This document shows, one piece after another, positions 4,940 through 20,890 of a DNA stretch of 27,211 nucleotides (its first letter is position 1; each line of letters opens with the position of its first letter). The notes under the pieces are model-generated. The model was not told where the DNA came from. It ran no database searches and saw only the letters and a program-made list of their open reading frames with translations. Source of the DNA: a virus; IMG/VR virus record IMGVR_UViG_3300000553_000275, positions 1 to 27,211 of that record; one strand, written 5' to 3'. The translations under genes and the position numbers were made by a program.

Positions 4940-6179
4940 GGATATAAATTTTAATTATGAAATCTTCACAGGAACACTTTGTCAATCATTTGTATCTGGG
5001 AGTGTTAGTGGTTCATTTACTGGGTCTATAGATGGATTTACCGGAAGTATAGAATGTTTTACTGGCCAAATGACCGGATTGGCATCTGGCAGTTACTATA
5101 CCACAAACAATGTATTTGTTAATACATCTACTCCAATTATTAAAAGAAGTCTTTTACAGTTCGATTTGGCAGCAATATCAAAATCAATATCAAATGGAGA
5201 AATAGAAGTTCCGAATTTTGTATTAAACCTCAAAGTCACAGAAGCAAAGGCTCTTCCATTGACATATACAATTTATTGTTATCCATTAACAAAAAACTGG
5301 CAAATGGGGTATGGAACATTTGCCGATGGTGGTTCTGATGTCGGTGTTAATTGGGCATATACAAATTATCCAGATTTAGGGACTGCTTGGTATTCCCCCA
5401 TGGATCCTACCTTTATTCCTACCGATGATTATTTGACTATTCCGTCAACATCCTCTTTTGTAAGAGGGGGCGGAGTTTGGTATTATGCATTGCCTACATC
5501 ATCAATGGATCTTCCGTCGGGTTCAAGTTTGATGTGTACCCAATCCTTTGATTATTACCAATCTTCCGATATAAAATTGGATATTACACCAATATGCAAG
5601 GCGTGGATTGGAGGAGGAATACCAAATAACGGTATTATATTGATGACATCAGAAGAAGTAGGCTCAAATCCACAGAATGGATATTTACACTTCTTCGGAA
5701 AAGAGACAAACACAATTTACACGCCATATATTGATGTCCAATGGGACGACTCTACTTACTTGTCCGGGAGTGTTTTGATTAGTTCCAGTATGGCACCAGT
5801 CACATCAAGCGTGGGAGTGTCGGTATCAATAAAAAATCTAAAGAAGGAATACAAGTCTGGAACAATTTCAAGATTCGATGTATATGCCAGAGATTTATAT
5901 CCCAAGAAAACATTTAGTAGACTACAGACTGTCTACCTGGATACAAAATATCTTCCAGCATCAAGTTATTATGCCATCAAAGACAATGAAAGTGATGAAA
6001 TGGTCATTAATTTTGATGATTACACAAAGATAAGTCTTGATGATGTTGGTAACTTCTTCATGTTAGATACGACAGGAATAGCACAGGAAAGATTTTATAG
6101 AATATTAATCAAATGTGAATTTGATGATAATGAAGTCGTTATTTATGATGACGGGGCAGTGTTTAAGATCACTAGATAA
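4938..6179 (+). CDS. DNRLRE-like virion structural protein
   Basis: A 413-residue probable tail or fibre-stalk protein. Residues about 10-55 are Gly/Ser/Thr-rich with repeated (F)TGS/SGS units, recalling the linkers of the 87- and 604-residue products. From residue about 70 (IIKRSLLQFDL) to about 270 it follows the pattern of DNRLRE stalk domains: a SLLQFDL strand, a LNLKV strand, Y.LTKNW, an ITPICKAWI segment, an FFGKET..IY segment, and finally IDVQWDDS. This last signature is common in structural proteins of large environmental phages. The C-terminal 130 residues (SIKNLKKEYKSGTI to IYDDGAVFKI) look like a further beta domain. No clear ribosome-binding site precedes the ATG. It is followed two bases later by the calcium-loop gene. 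Confidence 0.7.
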   Translation: MDINFNYEIFTGTLCQSFVSGSVSGSFTGSIDGFTGSIECFTGQMTGLASGSYYTTNNVFVNTSTPIIKRSLLQFDLAAISKSISNGEIEVPNFVLNLKVTEAKALPLTYTIYCYPLTKNWQMGYGTFADGGSDVGVNWAYTNYPDLGTAWYSPMDPTFIPTDDYLTIPSTSSFVRGGGVWYYALPTSSMDLPSGSSLMCTQSFDYYQSSDIKLDITPICKAWIGGGIPNNGIILMTSEEVGSNPQNGYLHFFGKETNTIYTPYIDVQWDDSTYLSGSVLISSSMAPVTSSVGVSVSIKNLKKEYKSGTISRFDVYARDLYPKKTFSRLQTVYLDTKYLPASSYYAIKDNESDEMVINFDDYTKISLDDVGNFFMLDTTGIAQERFYRILIKCEFDDNEVVIYDDGAVFKITR

Positions 6180-6181
6180 AA

Positions 6182-7144
6182 ATGAATTCAATAAATACAT
6201 TTGGACCTGAAATAACCAAATTCAGAAATAATGACTTAGAGTATATCTACAGTTTCAATTCTGCTGGGAATCTTTCGTTTTCATACAGTGGTTCATTTAA
6301 CCAAGTATATCTCATGGTAAGTGGATCCAGATTTGGGTATGATGATTCCAATATTAACAAATTGTTGGATATCTCTTTTTCAGAATTTTCTGATACATCA
6401 GAAGAATCGACCGTTTCTTCTATAGATTATAAATCTATTGCAGATCAATTGAACGATCAGGTTTTAAATTTACAGTCCTTGTTATTGGCATCACAACAAA
6501 ATAGCTCATCTCTTGAGGATTATGTTAGCCAAATTAATAGAGATGAGGCAACTATAATAGCATTGAGAATTTCATTGGGGCAGGGTAAAACGGTCAATGA
6601 TTTTTCTACTGTATTCCCATATTTGCCACTAGTTTCTGGATCAGTAAATTCCAGTGGTTCTTTATCAAACAACTCCCCGGCAACAGCGTCTATAAGTAAT
6701 CCATTGGCAAGCCTAGATTCAAATGGTGACGGCATGTTATCCACCAAGGAAATAAGACAAATTCCTATATTGTACAGAACAAATCCTGTATTGCAAAATT
6801 TAATAGCAAAAAGACATAATGGAAAGGCTCCGAAAACATTATCTAAAATAGACCTAGATTATATCGTTCGGACATTCTATATGTATGTGGATCAAACAAC
6901 ATACACAAATACAAAAATTTCTTCTAATATTACGGATACATTGCTTAAAAAATTTGACATAAATGGAAATAAGCTTCTGGATAAAACGGATTTGAAATTA
7001 ATAAAACAACAGTTCAAGGTAGCAAACCCGGTTCTTACACAATTCGCATCAACCGGGTCAAATGGTAAATATAAATTTGATGCTACAAATCAACAAGAAA
7101 TTTATAATGCAATTTATACACAAATAACAGGATCTTCTAGTTAA
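6182..7144 (+). CDS. EF-hand/dockerin-type calcium-loop protein
   Basis: A 320-residue protein with no family match over its full length. Residues 1-75 look beta-rich; 85-135 are likely helical or coiled-coil (IADQLNDQVLNLQSLLLASQ); 150-175 is a Ser/Gly/Asn linker. Residues 179-190 (DSNGDGMLSTKE) are a textbook EF-hand loop with D, N, D, G, L and E at positions 1, 3, 5, 6, 8 and 12. Residues 259-270 (DINGNKLLDKTD), followed by LKLIKQQF, are the dockerin-type form of the loop plus helix. The two loops are about 80 residues apart, spaced like EF-hands in a small calcium domain. It probably binds calcium and could dock onto another virion protein. It starts two bases after its neighbour's stop, so it is likely co-translated. 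Confidence 0.7.
   Translation: MNSINTFGPEITKFRNNDLEYIYSFNSAGNLSFSYSGSFNQVYLMVSGSRFGYDDSNINKLLDISFSEFSDTSEESTVSSIDYKSIADQLNDQVLNLQSLLLASQQNSSSLEDYVSQINRDEATIIALRISLGQGKTVNDFSTVFPYLPLVSGSVNSSGSLSNNSPATASISNPLASLDSNGDGMLSTKEIRQIPILYRTNPVLQNLIAKRHNGKAPKTLSKIDLDYIVRTFYMYVDQTTYTNTKISSNITDTLLKKFDINGNKLLDKTDLKLIKQQFKVANPVLTQFASTGSNGKYKFDATNQQEIYNAIYTQITGSSS
6716..6751 (+). other. EF-hand loop 1 (DSNGDGMLSTKE)
   Basis: Codons for residues 179-190 of the 320-residue protein. All canonical calcium-coordinating positions are filled, including the final Glu, so this loop should be functional. Confidence 0.7.
6956..6991 (+). other. Dockerin-type calcium loop 2 (DINGNKLLDKTD)
   Basis: Codons for residues 259-270 of the 320-residue protein. 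D, N, N and D occupy loop positions 1, 3, 5 and 12, followed by an amphipathic helix as in dockerin segments. Confidence 0.6.
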
Positions 7145-7148
7145 TAAC

Positions 7149-10100
7149 ATGGCATCATTCAATATATTGCAGGAAAATTCTTACGGGATAAATTACACAA
7201 GCTATCTTAATCAATCAGATACTAATCTTTATTTGGGGCCGTCTATTAATGAATTTTTCTTTGGAACCGGGGATGTAAGCAAAGATTCAATCGAAATGGG
7301 AATTTATGATTCTTCGCAAAATCTCCTGTATTTTACATCTATAACGGGTTCCTATACTACCACAAGAAATAATTATTTGTATACAGATATTGACGGGAAT
7401 TCCTTTGTCGATTATTTTGACAAAACTACAGGAAACTTTATACAGAGATCTTATAGAAGTTTGTTAATAGATATCCCGGACTTTATATCAAGTTCTATTA
7501 GTAATTCTTCGAGTCTATCTTCAAGTTTGTTTACTGGAGCATCTAACAATTTCTACATCTCTGTCAACCCGATAATAAATTTCTTCTCAATATCGAATCC
7601 ACTGGTGATAAAGGAGATAAGCAACTCTAAACAAGAGATTCGATTGGTCAAAAACTTCTTGTCTGAAAATGTTGAAAATGATATCTCTTTGGAATTTAAG
7701 AATTCCCAGATTTATCTGAACGGGAACACGAGTATAAACCTGAAATCTGGCATAATTCATACTATTACGGTTTCTGTTAGTGGAAACGAAGATATTACGG
7801 ACATTGGGTTTAGTCTTGTTAAGGACGGACCGATACTCGGAACCGGTACAAACTACACTTCAAATATAATTTTTAAACCATTGACCCAGGAAATAATACT
7901 TGATACTACTTCCGGCAATTTCCCCCAAGTGTTATGGATATATAACAAACATCAATCAGGAATGGGATGTCAAATCACATTTGCGGATTCTGTTGACAAA
8001 GATATATTCAAACTAAATACTGAATTTCTTTCTCTCGATTCAAATAAGTTTGTATATGAACAGATATACGATATAATGGAATATTATCTCAACAGTTTTA
8101 ATTGTGTAAACTTATATAACTCGACCAAAAATAATAATGTCGCTGAGATAGAATCTTTAAAGCATTTTTTCACTCTCAACTCCGATTCTGGCGTATATGA
8201 CATACTAAACACAATTTTTCATGGCGAAGCTTATTATGACAATCTCCAACGTAAACAAGTAACTATACCCGGAATACTGAATTATATATTAAATTATATG
8301 AATTTTAATTATAATTTGGTGGGAGACTTCCAAACCCTATCGTCACAAATCAATAGAATTAATGTCTATACAATAGACGAAGTACTTCGGCACAAGAATC
8401 CAAACTATACTGAAAATTCACAAACCTTATCATATTATAATGATTCTATTACGTATTTATCCAACCTATTCAACTATTTTCTCCTTGGGGTACAGGCATC
8501 TGTAAATTCAGATTTCACCGAAGTATTCAAGTCTCCCATTAGAAATGCATTAAATTTTGGAAGTAATAATTATTCGTTAATAATAAATTCAAAAATAAAT
8601 TATTCAGACCAAAATAATCTGGAATATGTTGTAAAATTAAAAGATCCGCTTCCGGATCAATACGGCATTGGATCTGCCTGTAATGTTTCAAATATAACCT
8701 ACATTCCATTTTTCCAAAGAATAAATTTCATCTCCCCCTCTCCAATTTCGAGAGCCATAAAACTAAACAGTACAAATTTCAACATTCAGATAAATGATTT
8801 ACAACCGTCAATATCAACAAAAACAAAAGAGTATAGTTATTCCGATCTATCAGTTCCATCTCCACAGAAACAGGATATACAAAATGTTAAAACGTCGACG
8901 CAGTTTAATGTAGATTTTTCAGATTTTTCAAATTTTGTGGTATTTTCGCAGGCATTTCTTCGTGTTAAGATATTTGAGAACAAGATTATTACACTTACAT
9001 TATTGGACCAAGAAGCCCAAGTACTCAAACAACAAGCCAAGAATGGCCAATATCCCTCAACATTTACACAGCATGATGGATATAATAATATAATTACTCT
9101 TGGCCCATACACGTCTGGATCTCAACAATCCGACCAAATTAATTCTATATTGGAGTCGTTCGACCCATATGAATCATATCTTTATAACCAATATACTAGT
9201 GGCAGCTTTATTTATGACATTCCACATAAGATGTTCATAGATCCGGCACAAAGTGGGTCAAAAAATCCCCAGACATCTCCATATATATCAGAGCTTGAAA
9301 GTTCTGCATATGAATATGATCGTATAAATCGGGATAGTTTGTACAATAATACTCCGGAATTTATTAATGCTGATGACAACAATTCAGACTATTTAAAATT
9401 TCTCAGTATGGTTGGGCACCATTTTGATAATATCTACCTGTATATTTCGACGATGAACGTATATACCCAGATTGGGAATGATTTGGATAATGGTATACCG
9501 AGAACTTTATTGAGTTCTGTTCTGGAATCATTTGGAATGAAATTGCCGCCGACACTATCTGGTAATACAGATGGTTCAGACGTTCTCTCTACGTATCTCA
9601 CAGATATACAAACCCCAGGCACATTAAATGGAATGTCGTTAGATGATAAGACAAAGGTTGTTTGGAAGCGTATACTGACAAATCTCCCCCAAATTTATAA
9701 AACAAAGGGAACCAATGAATCCATAACATATATATTAAACTGCTATGGTATTCCGGAAAACTTGATTACAATTAAGGAATTCGGTGGCGGATATACATCT
9801 CCAGGAATAGATTCTTGGAATGACGTGGCAGAAAAAGAATATTTATTACAATTCGTCGGGAATAATAATGAATATGTGAGAATTGATGGGGCCGGAGGGT
9901 ATATGTCTCTGGATTTTAAATTTTCTGTGTCAGATAAGGATTATTCCCCAGGAAATTTGGTAGAATTATATTCAAAATTTGGCAACAATATGTCCCAAAC
10001 TGTATCATTTGGCATCATAAAGGGAACAGATGTCAATGGAATGTATTATATCATTATCAGAGACCCTATCAGCGGAAGTGAATATGGATATGTGACAGAC

Positions 10101-17158: not shown

Positions 17159-17677
17159 ATGATTAATGTAATGGTAATTGAAGATAACGATGGGGATTAT
17201 GTTCTCGCAAGAGAAGCTATAGCTACGCACTCACAACAAATTGAATTATCCAGAGCAAAAACACTTGCAGATGGGTTGGACCAGATAATGACCAAAACTA
17301 ATATTGATCTAATATTAGTTGATTTACATTTACCAGATTCTATTGGTACTAGTACCATTTTGCTAATAAAAGAAATAACAGATATACCCATTGTGGTATT
17401 GACCGGAAATGATGATGACGAAATGATAGTAGATTCTATACGATGCGGAGCATATAATTTTTTACATAAATCTGAAATGAACGGGAATCTACGGAGAGCT
17501 ATTCTTACTGCCAAGGCAAAATCAGACTGTGATTCAGAAAAGAGGAAAAAATTGTTGGAAACGATGAGAAAATACTTTCCGCCCACAGCGAAAACAGAAC
17601 CTTCCCAAAAACAAGAAATAAAATCTACTAATATTATGGAGGATGTCGAAACCGAGATGTTGGCGACAATTATATGA
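17159..17677 (+). CDS. CheY-like response-regulator receiver protein
   Basis: A 172-residue stand-alone receiver. Two-component receivers accept a phosphoryl group from a histidine kinase on a conserved Asp. All key residues are present: acidic pair E8/D9 (VIEDNDGD), phosphoacceptor D55 (LILVDLHLPDS), T82 (VVLTGND) and K104 (FLHKSEM), with GAYNFLHK matching the usual beta5 region. Residues about 1-122 make the whole domain. The remaining 50 are polar and Lys/Glu-rich with no recognised output domain, so it is probably a CheY/Spo0F-type protein acting through contacts. It has the strongest ribosome-binding site in the window (GAGGTG, 17143-17148). Its stop overlaps the next start (ATGA at 17674-17677), so the two proteins are made together. 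No kinase is visible nearby, suggesting it intercepts a host kinase. A receiver among tail genes is unusual. Confidence 0.85.
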   Translation: MINVMVIEDNDGDYVLAREAIATHSQQIELSRAKTLADGLDQIMTKTNIDLILVDLHLPDSIGTSTILLIKEITDIPIVVLTGNDDDEMIVDSIRCGAYNFLHKSEMNGNLRRAILTAKAKSDCDSEKRKKLLETMRKYFPPTAKTEPSQKQEIKSTNIMEDVETEMLATII

Positions 17678-18051
17678 GCATTGAAATTGAAGATATAATG
17701 ATGGAACTAGTAAAGAACATAGGGGAATCAAACAAGATTCTTCTTGAACGCGTGTCTAAATTAGAAGAAAGTAGCAGAAATACTGCTACCCATGTAGATA
17801 TGGTGGAGTTGGTTAAGGCCGTTTATCGTGTTAATGAAGATACACAACAAATAATTTGTTATATAGCAGATCTTGATAACAGTGTTGGAACTATAGATAT
17901 TCTTACGAAGTGGGATAAATTTTGGTCATGGCTATCCAGGGGTAAAGTTATTGGAGGAATCATTGTTGCAATTTTAGCGGTGGTTGGTGCATTCGTCTGG
18001 TTTTTAATAAAATGGTTACCCCTCCTTACAAAACTATTTTCTGGCAGTTAA
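17674..18051 (+). CDS. Coiled-coil protein with one C-terminal membrane segment
   Basis: A 125-residue protein of unknown function, translationally coupled to the receiver by a four-base ATGA overlap. Residues about 8-36 (IMMELVKNIGESNKILLERV) form a likely coiled coil, and 40-70 are also helical. Residues about 92-113 (VIGGIIVAILAVVGAFVWF) are one strong membrane segment, flanked by K91 and a short tail with lysines, giving a probable tail-anchored topology with the coiled coil in the cytoplasm. It could tether the receiver at the membrane, act as a holin or spanin-like lysis factor, or be a superinfection-exclusion protein. Coupling favours a partner role with the receiver, but no motif decides this. 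Trp-rich spacing before the membrane segment (WDKFWSWL) suggests an interface helix. Confidence 0.7.
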   Translation: MSIEIEDIMMELVKNIGESNKILLERVSKLEESSRNTATHVDMVELVKAVYRVNEDTQQIICYIADLDNSVGTIDILTKWDKFWSWLSRGKVIGGIIVAILAVVGAFVWFLIKWLPLLTKLFSGS

Positions 18052-18055
18052 AACA

Positions 18056-20890
18056 ATGAATAACTTGACCCAACTTTTCGTTGATAAGTTTAATTTACTC
18101 TTATCAGAATCCATAGAATTGTTGTTAGAAGCCGCCAGAATTCAGCATATAGAAGATATTATTTTCTGGGAAGGGTCTCGTGGCGCTTTAAGAGCAGTAA
18201 AAAGCCTTGAATCTCTACAGGCAGGAAATACCAAAGATTTGTCTGTTAAATGGGATGGTTCTCCTGCAATAATTTTCGGAAGAAATCAATCTGGCCAGTT
18301 TGTATTAACTGACAAAAACGGCTTTGTTGCTAAATCATATAATGGTAAGCCTACTTCTGCCGTTGAACTGGAGAAAATGTTTTTGGGAAGGGGATCAAAC
18401 AAAGATATTAGTTATAGACAATTCGCTGCGAATATGAAAAGTGTATGGCCTATATTTGAAGAGTCTGTTCCGACTGAATTCCGAGGGTATTTTAAGGGAG
18501 ATTTATTATATTTTAATACCCCAAAACTAGAAAATGGAAGATACATATTCAAACCAAATATCGTAACATACAGTGTTTCAGAAACATCTGAGCTTGGAAA
18601 AAAAATATCTAAAAGTGTAGTCGGAGTTGTGGTTCATAGGATTGTGGACGAGGCCGGTACCGAATATCCAATAAAAGATTTAAACCTTTTTAAAGGTGCG
18701 AGATTGTTAGTGATTCCTCCTATTATTGTTCAAAAACCACCGGTTATTGATAAAGGAATACTTAGAAAACTAGAATCTTCTATAAAACGCAATGCCAGAG
18801 ATATTGATTCTTTGTTAGATAAGAACAAACTCTCAGCGCAAAAAATGACAGATTTTCCTGATATTTTGTACAAATATATCAATAGTAAGGTTGATACAGG
18901 ACTAGAAGGCCTTGGCAAAGACTTTTTAAAGTGGCTATCTAAAAGCAACGTATCAGATACAAAAAAGAAAAAGATTGACGAATATATAAGACAAAATGTA
19001 AACGGATTTATTGCATTGTGGGAAATTGTTACGTCTCTCATGTCAATAAAGGATAACATAGTTGACCAGATAGATAGTCAAAATGTAGATATACAGACAT
19101 CCATTAATGGAAAGCCTGGTGGAGAAGGATATGTTTTATCACAACCGGACGGAGATATAAAACTGGTCTCAAGATCAAAATTTAGTGCTGCAAATAGAGC
19201 CGTGGTGAGAGAGGATATAGTTGAAGGTGGGTGGTTAAATCCAAAATTAACATCGGGAACGAAACTGACTCCTGACATAATTGAGAAAGTAAATACACAG
19301 TTTAATATCTTTATTGGTGATCTAAATGAGTTCATTTTATCAAAAAACATACCAATTATCAAAGAATTTAAGATTCTTGGTTCTGCCGCATATTATATTA
19401 AAGATCTGGAAGATAAGAAAGAAACCCAATACGGGGATATTGATATGATGCTGGTATTGGAAAAGTCTCCAGACGAAATAGATCAACAAACCAAATCGAA
19501 ATATCAAAAAATTATAGTGGATTTCGTGGAAAATTCTTCGCAGGGATACGTTGACAAAGAATCAGCAAGGCGGAGTCACGGTTCACAATTAATTATAAAA
19601 TTGGGGGAAGAATCATGGGTTCAATTGGATTTGTTGTTTACACTGGAAGAATATAAAGACTGGTTTTCCACGAGATTTACACCGCAGCGTGGTATAAAGG
19701 GGTTCGTAATAGGAAATCTATATTCATCATTAGCAGATACTTTAAATATTAGCATTTCAGATAGGGGCGTTAGAACCAAGACCAAAGACGGTAAAATAGT
19801 ATCATATTCTCTAAAGAAAGACGTAATTGACAAACTGGTTACAAAGCATCCAAAAACATTCTTATATGATATTTGCACATTTTTGTCAAAGTTTTATGAG
19901 TTGCCTCTGCAAGAAATAGATCCAAATCTTGATGCAAATCGTGGCATGGATCCGAAAAATATTGACTTTAAGGGATTTGTAAAGGGCGTTTATGGACTGG
20001 CAAAAACACTGGAAAAATCGGGCATTTTGGATAAAATGGGATTCACGTATACTTCTTTTATCACATCCATAAAATCAAAATATTCAGAAAAATCCACAGA
20101 CCAATTGAATAAGAGAGAGAAAAAATCTGATTCAGAAGAGACTCAACAATCGATTGATAAAATAAAAAAGAATATAGAATTTGGGACTTCCATACTTGGA
20201 AGTACACTTAATGAAGGCGGAAACGTATTCAAGGACCCCTCTGGAAAAATATTGACACATAGAATTAATAAACCCGATGTTATTCCTACAATTAACTGGT
20301 TGGAAAAATTGACCGGATTAAAACTGGTGGATAATACATTGGGAACAACTGGTATCAAGGATTCATCTGGAGATTTAGATTTGGCTGTCGATGTTTCTAC
20401 CATATCCAAAGAACAATTGTCAGCGATTCTTATTAAATGGGCTATAAAGACCAAACACGATCCAAAGGAATTTGTCAAAAAGACAGGAGATTCCGTCCAT
20501 TTCAAGACCCCTATCCTTGGAAACGAAGAGAATGGGTTTGTTCAGACAGATTTTATGTTCGGTGATCCTGCATGGATGAAATGGAGTATGCGAGGAGAAC
20601 CAGAACCATATCGGGGAATGCAAAGACATGTATTGTTGGCCAGTATAGCAAAATATAAAAACCTCAAATGGTCATATAAAAATGGATTGGTTGATAGATC
20701 AACAGATAAGATAGTCAGTAAAAACCCTAAAGAAATTGCAAAAATTTTATTGGGGGTTGATGCTACAGAGAAAGATTTGGAAAATATTCCAACAATTATA
20801 AATAAGATAAAATCCGATCCGAATTACGATGCCATGACCGCAGAGGCTAGACAGACACTAAAACAACAGTATAATGCAATCCTGCCGTAA
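18056..20890 (+). CDS. Ligase-like nucleotidyltransferase fused to two Pol-beta-type nucleotidyltransferase domains
   Basis: A 944-residue probable enzyme. Residues about 25-390 resemble the ATP-dependent ligase/capping-enzyme fold. K65-x-D-G68 (SVKWDGSPAIIFGR) is a motif I candidate for the nucleotide-accepting Lys; EFRGYFKGDLLYF (141-153) could be motif III; GEGYV (356-360) and DIKLVSR (367-373) look like motifs IV and V. From memory, phage proteins with this WDGSPA block are annotated as DUF6267 or hypothetical. Residues about 435-570 are a Pol-beta-type domain: G442-S443, D461xD463 (YGDIDMMLV) and third Asp D525 (VQLDLLF). Residues about 710-870 are a second one: G763-T764, D773xD775 (SGDLDLAVD) and D832 (VQTDFMF). 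All catalytic carboxylates are intact. Substrates could be RNA, DNA, protein or small molecules. It starts four bases after the membrane protein and belongs to the same operon as the receiver. Confidence 0.75.
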   Translation: MNNLTQLFVDKFNLLLSESIELLLEAARIQHIEDIIFWEGSRGALRAVKSLESLQAGNTKDLSVKWDGSPAIIFGRNQSGQFVLTDKNGFVAKSYNGKPTSAVELEKMFLGRGSNKDISYRQFAANMKSVWPIFEESVPTEFRGYFKGDLLYFNTPKLENGRYIFKPNIVTYSVSETSELGKKISKSVVGVVVHRIVDEAGTEYPIKDLNLFKGARLLVIPPIIVQKPPVIDKGILRKLESSIKRNARDIDSLLDKNKLSAQKMTDFPDILYKYINSKVDTGLEGLGKDFLKWLSKSNVSDTKKKKIDEYIRQNVNGFIALWEIVTSLMSIKDNIVDQIDSQNVDIQTSINGKPGGEGYVLSQPDGDIKLVSRSKFSAANRAVVREDIVEGGWLNPKLTSGTKLTPDIIEKVNTQFNIFIGDLNEFILSKNIPIIKEFKILGSAAYYIKDLEDKKETQYGDIDMMLVLEKSPDEIDQQTKSKYQKIIVDFVENSSQGYVDKESARRSHGSQLIIKLGEESWVQLDLLFTLEEYKDWFSTRFTPQRGIKGFVIGNLYSSLADTLNISISDRGVRTKTKDGKIVSYSLKKDVIDKLVTKHPKTFLYDICTFLSKFYELPLQEIDPNLDANRGMDPKNIDFKGFVKGVYGLAKTLEKSGILDKMGFTYTSFITSIKSKYSEKSTDQLNKREKKSDSEETQQSIDKIKKNIEFGTSILGSTLNEGGNVFKDPSGKILTHRINKPDVIPTINWLEKLTGLKLVDNTLGTTGIKDSSGDLDLAVDVSTISKEQLSAILIKWAIKTKHDPKEFVKKTGDSVHFKTPILGNEENGFVQTDFMFGDPAWMKWSMRGEPEPYRGMQRHVLLASIAKYKNLKWSYKNGLVDRSTDKIVSKNPKEIAKILLGVDATEKDLENIPTIINKIKSDPNYDAMTAEARQTLKQQYNAILP

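Follow-up and report, generated by a model that had tools for sequence, protein, structure and literature searches.

A phage gene that may encode a prohead-processed set of a DUF6267 ligase-like enzyme and two polymerase-X-like nucleotidyltransferases

In phage RNA repair, RlaP (PF10127) is predicted to work with ATP-dependent RNA ligases (PMC7824862). The virion of African swine fever virus (ASFV) contains Pol X (O174L) together with a DNA ligase (NP419L) (PMC12172490). In T4, the internal proteins are made with leaders of 10–19 residues that are removed in the prohead (PMC9026906); these leaders and that of Alt are capsid-targeting sequences (CTS) taken off by gp21, and the internal proteins are ejected into the host, where some of them act against restriction (PMC9026906, PMC3012670). 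The gene described here occupies positions 18056–20890 (+ strand, as for all window features below) of a 27,211-base virus record, the whole of which we call the window. We propose, with the chances standing at about even, that it encodes, in a T4-like phage, a common precursor for three end-repair enzymes, which is processed in the prohead and packaged in the virion.

The frame is open and intact and its 944-residue product carries, in succession, a putative capsid-targeting leader, a ligase-like DUF6267 domain (N), a Pol-X-like nucleotidyltransferase (M) and a Pol-beta-type nucleotidyltransferase (C). The leader would span residues 1–25 (18056–18130) and end in LLE25/AA, the slash marking the presumed cut. 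N extends to about residue 390 (residues 26–390, 18131–19225), M runs from about 391 to 720 (19226–20215) and C from about 721 to 944 (20216–20887), limits which correct those of the initial annotation. The gene sits in an apparent run of tail genes; the window opens with a 543-residue ORF that matches baseplate-wedge families, and most other ORFs match nothing. Two genes upstream (17159–17677) is a 172-residue protein with a receiver (CheY-like) domain, odd in such a run, whose acidic pocket and phospho-acceptor Asp are apparently intact and which belongs to phrog_731, of unknown function; the idea that it could be an RNA-repair cRec domain was set aside, as on visual inspection it resembles an ordinary receiver. 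The gene immediately upstream (17674–18051) encodes a 125-residue protein with a coiled N-terminal part, a hydrophobic C-terminal stretch and no PHROG match.

Residues 1–390 match DUF6267 in Pfam (PF19782) at 3.5e-32, with a score of 112.6 bits where the gathering cut-off is 27, and also phrog_455; both families are annotated as of unknown function, and our literature search, within its incomplete coverage, found no paper naming DUF6267. The initial annotation had recognized ligase-like motifs in K65-W-D-G, GEGYV (356–360) and DIKLVSR (367–373), and had proposed to check whether K65 is conserved. It is, in 107 out of 107 dereplicated N domains, and so are H31, E33, D34, W66, D67, G68, P70, D149, E357, G358, K369 and R373, alike in the groups with and without M or C neighbours. 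Motif I (18248–18259) thus contains an invariant K65, the candidate adenylated lysine; the motif III-, IV- and V-like residues follow in ligase order, with G148-D149 (18497–18502), where Asp replaces the usual Glu of ligases, and then E357-G358 to K369-L-V-S-R373 (19124–19174).

The structural model of N, computed from a 71-sequence alignment, has a mean pLDDT of 89.7. Foldseek against the PDB gave nothing below 1e-3 (the first row was a tRNA ligase, E 0.15). With VIA-align, all 50 matches listed were RNA or DNA ligases, the best being the Naegleria RNA ligase with a Z of 7.4, below the tool's caution level of 8 (180 residues aligned, 4.4 Å). This Z value is modest but the listed matches are unanimous for ligases, and the predicted fold of the first domain, on which the initial annotation had also made its reading depend, appears ligase-like. 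In BFVD the fold is linked with fusions of DUF6267 to cytidyltransferase-like domains and also, at E 3.1e-3, with a 324-residue Atu_ph07 protein that bears the name RNA ligase and has the length of the Atu_ph07 KLDG protein. N has a long helical insertion between motifs III and IV and, unlike cellular DNA ligases, shows in its secondary structure no candidate region for an OB-fold after motif V. By sequence, the 944-residue protein does not match PF09414 (Rnl2-type RNA ligase) at E up to 1, neither it nor the profiles of N and M found a meaningful match in the PDB, and NCBIfam gave nothing useful. Profile comparison of N with the KLDGS proteins of Phosso and Atu_ph07 was weak (13% probability), with an alignment covering motif I and a shared PNxxxY; these proteins occupy the same slot and are possibly remote homologues.

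The two sets of DxD plus a third Asp reported initially, D461/D463/D525 in M and D773/D775/D832 in C, are intact. In an alignment built on fused relatives and then checked, the G-S...D-x-D...D of M and the D-x-D...D of C are each invariant, and conserved together, in the rows that cover them. The model of M plus C (pLDDT 91.7, pTM 0.65) retrieved family-X polymerases in the first 50 Foldseek rows against the PDB, at E values from 1e-3 to 7e-3 and none below 1e-3. In VIA-align, ASFV Pol X came first (Z 11.1, 168 residues aligned, rmsd 3.3), followed among the matches listed by Pol beta, TdT, Pol lambda and Pol mu (Z 9.9–11.1). All of these fall on M and say nothing of the fold of C, which is related to M by profile (hhalign 95.8%).

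It is here that RNA repair has to be weighed, i.e. the joining of cleaved tRNA by the ligase-like part after the nucleotidyltransferases have restored lost nucleotides. We regard it as rather unlikely, though it is the foremost of the competing explanations. Among the structures listed for N a nick-sealing RNA ligase ranks first, the related Atu_ph07 protein bears the name of RNA ligase, no OB-fold is seen in N, and a ligase next to a Pol-beta nucleotidyltransferase is the known RlaP arrangement (PMC7824862). However, the RlaP model PF10127 is matched at E up to 1 neither by the 944-residue protein (M and C included) nor by the M domain or the Phosso and Atu_ph07 homologues, and the nearest folds of M are family-X DNA polymerases. 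Moreover, the versions found in cyanophages, Phosso and Atu_ph07 lie amid DNA-replication genes (gp43, UvsX and gp41 beside the first, primase and helicase genes beside the other two), and no recurrent kinase or phosphatase was seen among the neighbours inspected.

Relatives could be collected only with alignments: the 944-residue sequence alone found none in viral contigs, and tblastn with M alone found none in phage records. Alignment-based scans of viral contigs yielded DUF6267, C and M loci (designated L below), and a search of phage records yielded the cyanophage DUF6267 proteins and the C homologues of Phosso, Atu_ph07 and PA5oct. As the sampling of loci was query-driven, the counts that follow show linkage, not frequency. 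According to the domain models, N is alone in 73 cases, follows a separate C gene in 70, is fused as N+M+C in 38 (the window counted) and comes third after C and M genes in 25. Rarer arrangements are M, C and N genes (6), a C+N fusion (6), an N+C fusion (1) and partial forms. In all, 148 contigs besides the window have N fused or adjacent to C, M or both, so that the fusion is not an isolated oddity. Neighbouring module pairs are on one strand in 140 cases out of 140, and in 110 of them overlap or are at most 10 bases apart. The other N+M+C fusions form a sister clade of proteins of about 990 residues, with many near-identical contigs. Genome contigs scanned for hosts gave a single match, a 5.6-kb metagenome-assembled contig, and the module thus looks phage-borne.

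In Phosso and Atu_ph07, a nucleotidyltransferase of the C type comes after the KLDGS ligase-like gene. The gene that follows it is strongly similar (E 8e-67 and 2e-78) to a family of 220–310 residues, cl5, which accompanies the module in 35 of the loci with separate C and N genes and in a few others. The trio of nucleotidyltransferase, ligase-like gene and cl5 is thus seen repeatedly, with ligase-like proteins of two kinds, and cl5, which is without match in Pfam, PHROG and NCBIfam, is a likely fourth component. Its members are spread over very different phages (examples are L144:6113-6997, L004:6824-7498 and L005:6842-7627). In PA5oct, EST35_0228 (L166:3306-4646), annotated as hypothetical, displays KIDG, PNVIEY, EGYV and KIVDK, which makes it a ligase-like candidate near a nucleotidyltransferase annotated as a virion protein.

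The cyanophage-type N has another companion, a HIGH-type nucleotidyltransferase of the NMN/cytidylyl-transferase kind, which lies no more than 3 kb away in 55 of 73 loci and is in most cases the next gene, overlapping with it. This pairing would suit a quite different target, i.e. nucleotide transfer to proteins, RNA capping, or a nucleotide signal or cofactor serving anti-defence, and it is the case that KxDG occurs in capping enzymes too and that small Pol-beta-type nucleotidyltransferases can modify proteins or small molecules. We hold such targets to be improbable: M resembles template-using Pol X enzymes across 168 residues and the listed structural matches of N are all ligases. The HIGH-type enzyme is also found fused to C and N, in L092, L094 and L106 (about 5300–7840).

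What distinguishes the proposal of a packaged precursor is the sequence at the domain starts. The enzymes begin directly after [L/I]-x-E, which is the signature of the T4 gp21 prohead protease. Among the starts with leaders, counted as distinct upstream strings, Glu occupies P1 in 78 of 78 for C and 36 of 36 for M, and P3 is always L, I or V; the neighbouring positions are variable. Standalone C proteins start M..[LI]xE/GGN.F and standalone M proteins start like MRAKEFILE/GGWAST. Four leaderless cases (C of Phosso, Atu_ph07 and L122; M of L089) begin with Met right before GG, which indicates that the fold does not need the Glu. As for N, the proteins with M or C neighbours have [ILVF]xE[AGSDN] before HxED in 65 cases out of 71. 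In the window protein such sites are present at all three domain starts: LLE25/AA, then IVE390/GG at the N–M joint (19217–19225) and LNE720/GG at the M–C joint (20207–20215), the last two being putative internal protease sites. Taking 45 fused proteins together, all 82 [LIV]xEGG strings stand at domain starts and none elsewhere. The bare [LIV]xE[AGS] count is not special (5 in the window protein versus 2.5 in shuffles), so that the weight of the evidence lies in position and conservation, not in the number of strings.

The signature is not confined to the module. CTS-like starts were found in 33 of 164 split module proteins and in 64 of 896 same-strand neighbours, where shuffles lead one to expect 0.4 and 1.7, and in 0 of 167 opposite-strand ORFs; the strict CTS pattern was absent from the N-terminus in the fused clade (0 of 9). 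Judging from their starts, the CTS-like neighbours of split modules are probably a stock of internal head proteins. Unrelated genes around split modules (L211:7552-7935, L097:9724-11035 and other same-strand neighbours) share starts of the form MK/MR..EF[IL].E, and one of the proteins with such starts is metallopeptidase-like. The cyanophage 'cytitidyltransferase' adjoining DUF6267 (L003:6176-7228, L019:4929-6002 and similar genes) often has a CTS-like leader, MRFRQFIIE/A, and may by this token be a virion protein. The triple fusions of L092, L094 and L106 have [LI]xE at both internal joints and lack an N-terminal leader.

The initial annotation had counted three transferase centres in one chain. 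Their motifs are invariant as described, and what is now in doubt is the single chain, which may be a precursor only, since [LI]xE at all three domain starts suggests cutting. It could nonetheless act uncut, as one three-domain enzyme in the infected cell, the [LI]xE strings being folding or linker features or relics. That the domains are fused in two clades, that the L106 polyprotein keeps its internal sites with no leader and that the leaderless PA5oct homologue is annotated as a virion protein all speak for this explanation. We nevertheless consider it unlikely, as conservation is limited to P1 and P3 with nothing around, relatives starting at M-GG make the Glu dispensable for the fold, the [LIV]xEGG strings are found at domain starts without exception, and unrelated neighbours carry the same signature. 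If the precursor is cut as proposed, the mature N-termini predicted for the window protein are AARIQ, GGWLN and GGNVF, which can be checked by virion proteomics of cultured relatives.

A candidate protease for these cuts, of the S77 (gp21) type, is encoded in 11 of the 14 related records searched. The other three, contigs of 92–126 kb that include L137 with its leadered module, gave no S77 match, and no protease was seen within the 27-kb window, itself a genome fragment. In the L106 record (G002:C1:81609-83132, - strand), the S77 match is in two parts within one 576-residue frame, as if an intein or other in-frame insertion interrupted it. In L185, a member of the window's sister clade, the tail sheath gene is followed by one with a CTS-like start, then by N+M+C, an unknown gene, the terminase and portal genes, two ORFs and the head maturation protease gene. 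The distant C homologue of PA5oct, like many of its neighbours, is annotated 'structural, ESI-MS/MS'; its lack of a leader makes the connection of leaders with packaging less secure. The initial annotation had found the late tail-region location unexpected for a repair enzyme. The surprise would disappear with packaging in the head, which we propose as the reason why repair-type enzymes lie among late structural genes and which agrees with the place of the L185 gene, after the tail sheath gene and ahead of those for terminase, portal and head protease. Our literature search, itself incomplete in coverage, found no packaged phage ligase.

The mechanism that we infer for the packaged precursor would run as follows. 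The leader would carry the precursor into the prohead, where the gp21-type protease would cut after L-L-E25, I-V-E390 and L-N-E720 and so free, within the head, the ligase-like enzyme and two Pol-beta/Pol-X-type nucleotidyltransferases. These would enter the host together with the phage DNA; the nucleotidyltransferases would then add or fill in nucleotides, and the ligase-like enzyme would seal 5'-phosphate/3'-hydroxyl ends by way of an adenylated K65. As substrate, ends, gaps or nicks in the DNA of the incoming genome would be more probable, with cleaved tRNA as the main alternative. DNA appears somewhat likelier than RNA in view of the predicted Pol X fold of M, the replication-gene neighbours and the parallel with the packaged ASFV Pol X and ligase. 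The coupled end-processing and joining put forward initially gains support from the motifs, the fold comparisons and the co-occurrence of the parts, with the activity and the substrate as predictions. On a broader scale, and a little short of even chances, a polyprotein cut by the prohead protease into a ligase and two polymerase-X-like enzymes would let each virion deliver a DNA (or tRNA) repair set, DUF6267 being the ligase of the system across cyanophages and other large phages. This provides a mechanism-level hypothesis for DUF6267, a family without assigned function in the annotation, with hundreds of records from cyanophages and other phages. If packaging is true, the genome (or host tRNA) would be repaired by enzymes present at entry, before phage gene expression.

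Set against the known systems, the locus resembles each in part. As in RlaP systems, a ligase and a nucleotidyltransferase of the Pol-beta superfamily are found together in large phages; unlike them, M and C of the window are without PF10127, the ligase-like part is DUF6267 and not Rnl1 or Rnl2 by Pfam, and the nucleotidyltransferases are two in number and fused, with prohead-protease-like sites. N may share the covalent nucleotidyltransferase fold, its model aligning over 180 residues at 4.4 Å, with the Rnl5-type RNA ligase of Naegleria gruberi (Rnl, PDB 6vt1/5cou), from which it differs by an identity of only 11–12%, by its helical motif III–IV insertion and in that no OB domain is seen. With ASFV the locus shares a Pol-X-type polymerase associated with a ligase, the best listed fold match of M being ASFV Pol X itself; the ASFV enzymes, from a eukaryotic virus, are encoded by separate genes, include a DNA ligase with an OB domain and take no prohead protease route, whereas in our case packaging is proposed and an AP endonuclease was not seen. 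Finally, the short N-terminal leader ending in [LI]xE and the S77 protease of related genomes recall the T4 internal proteins, from which the window protein departs in being a ligase/polymerase set with sites between its domains, at which processing would take place.
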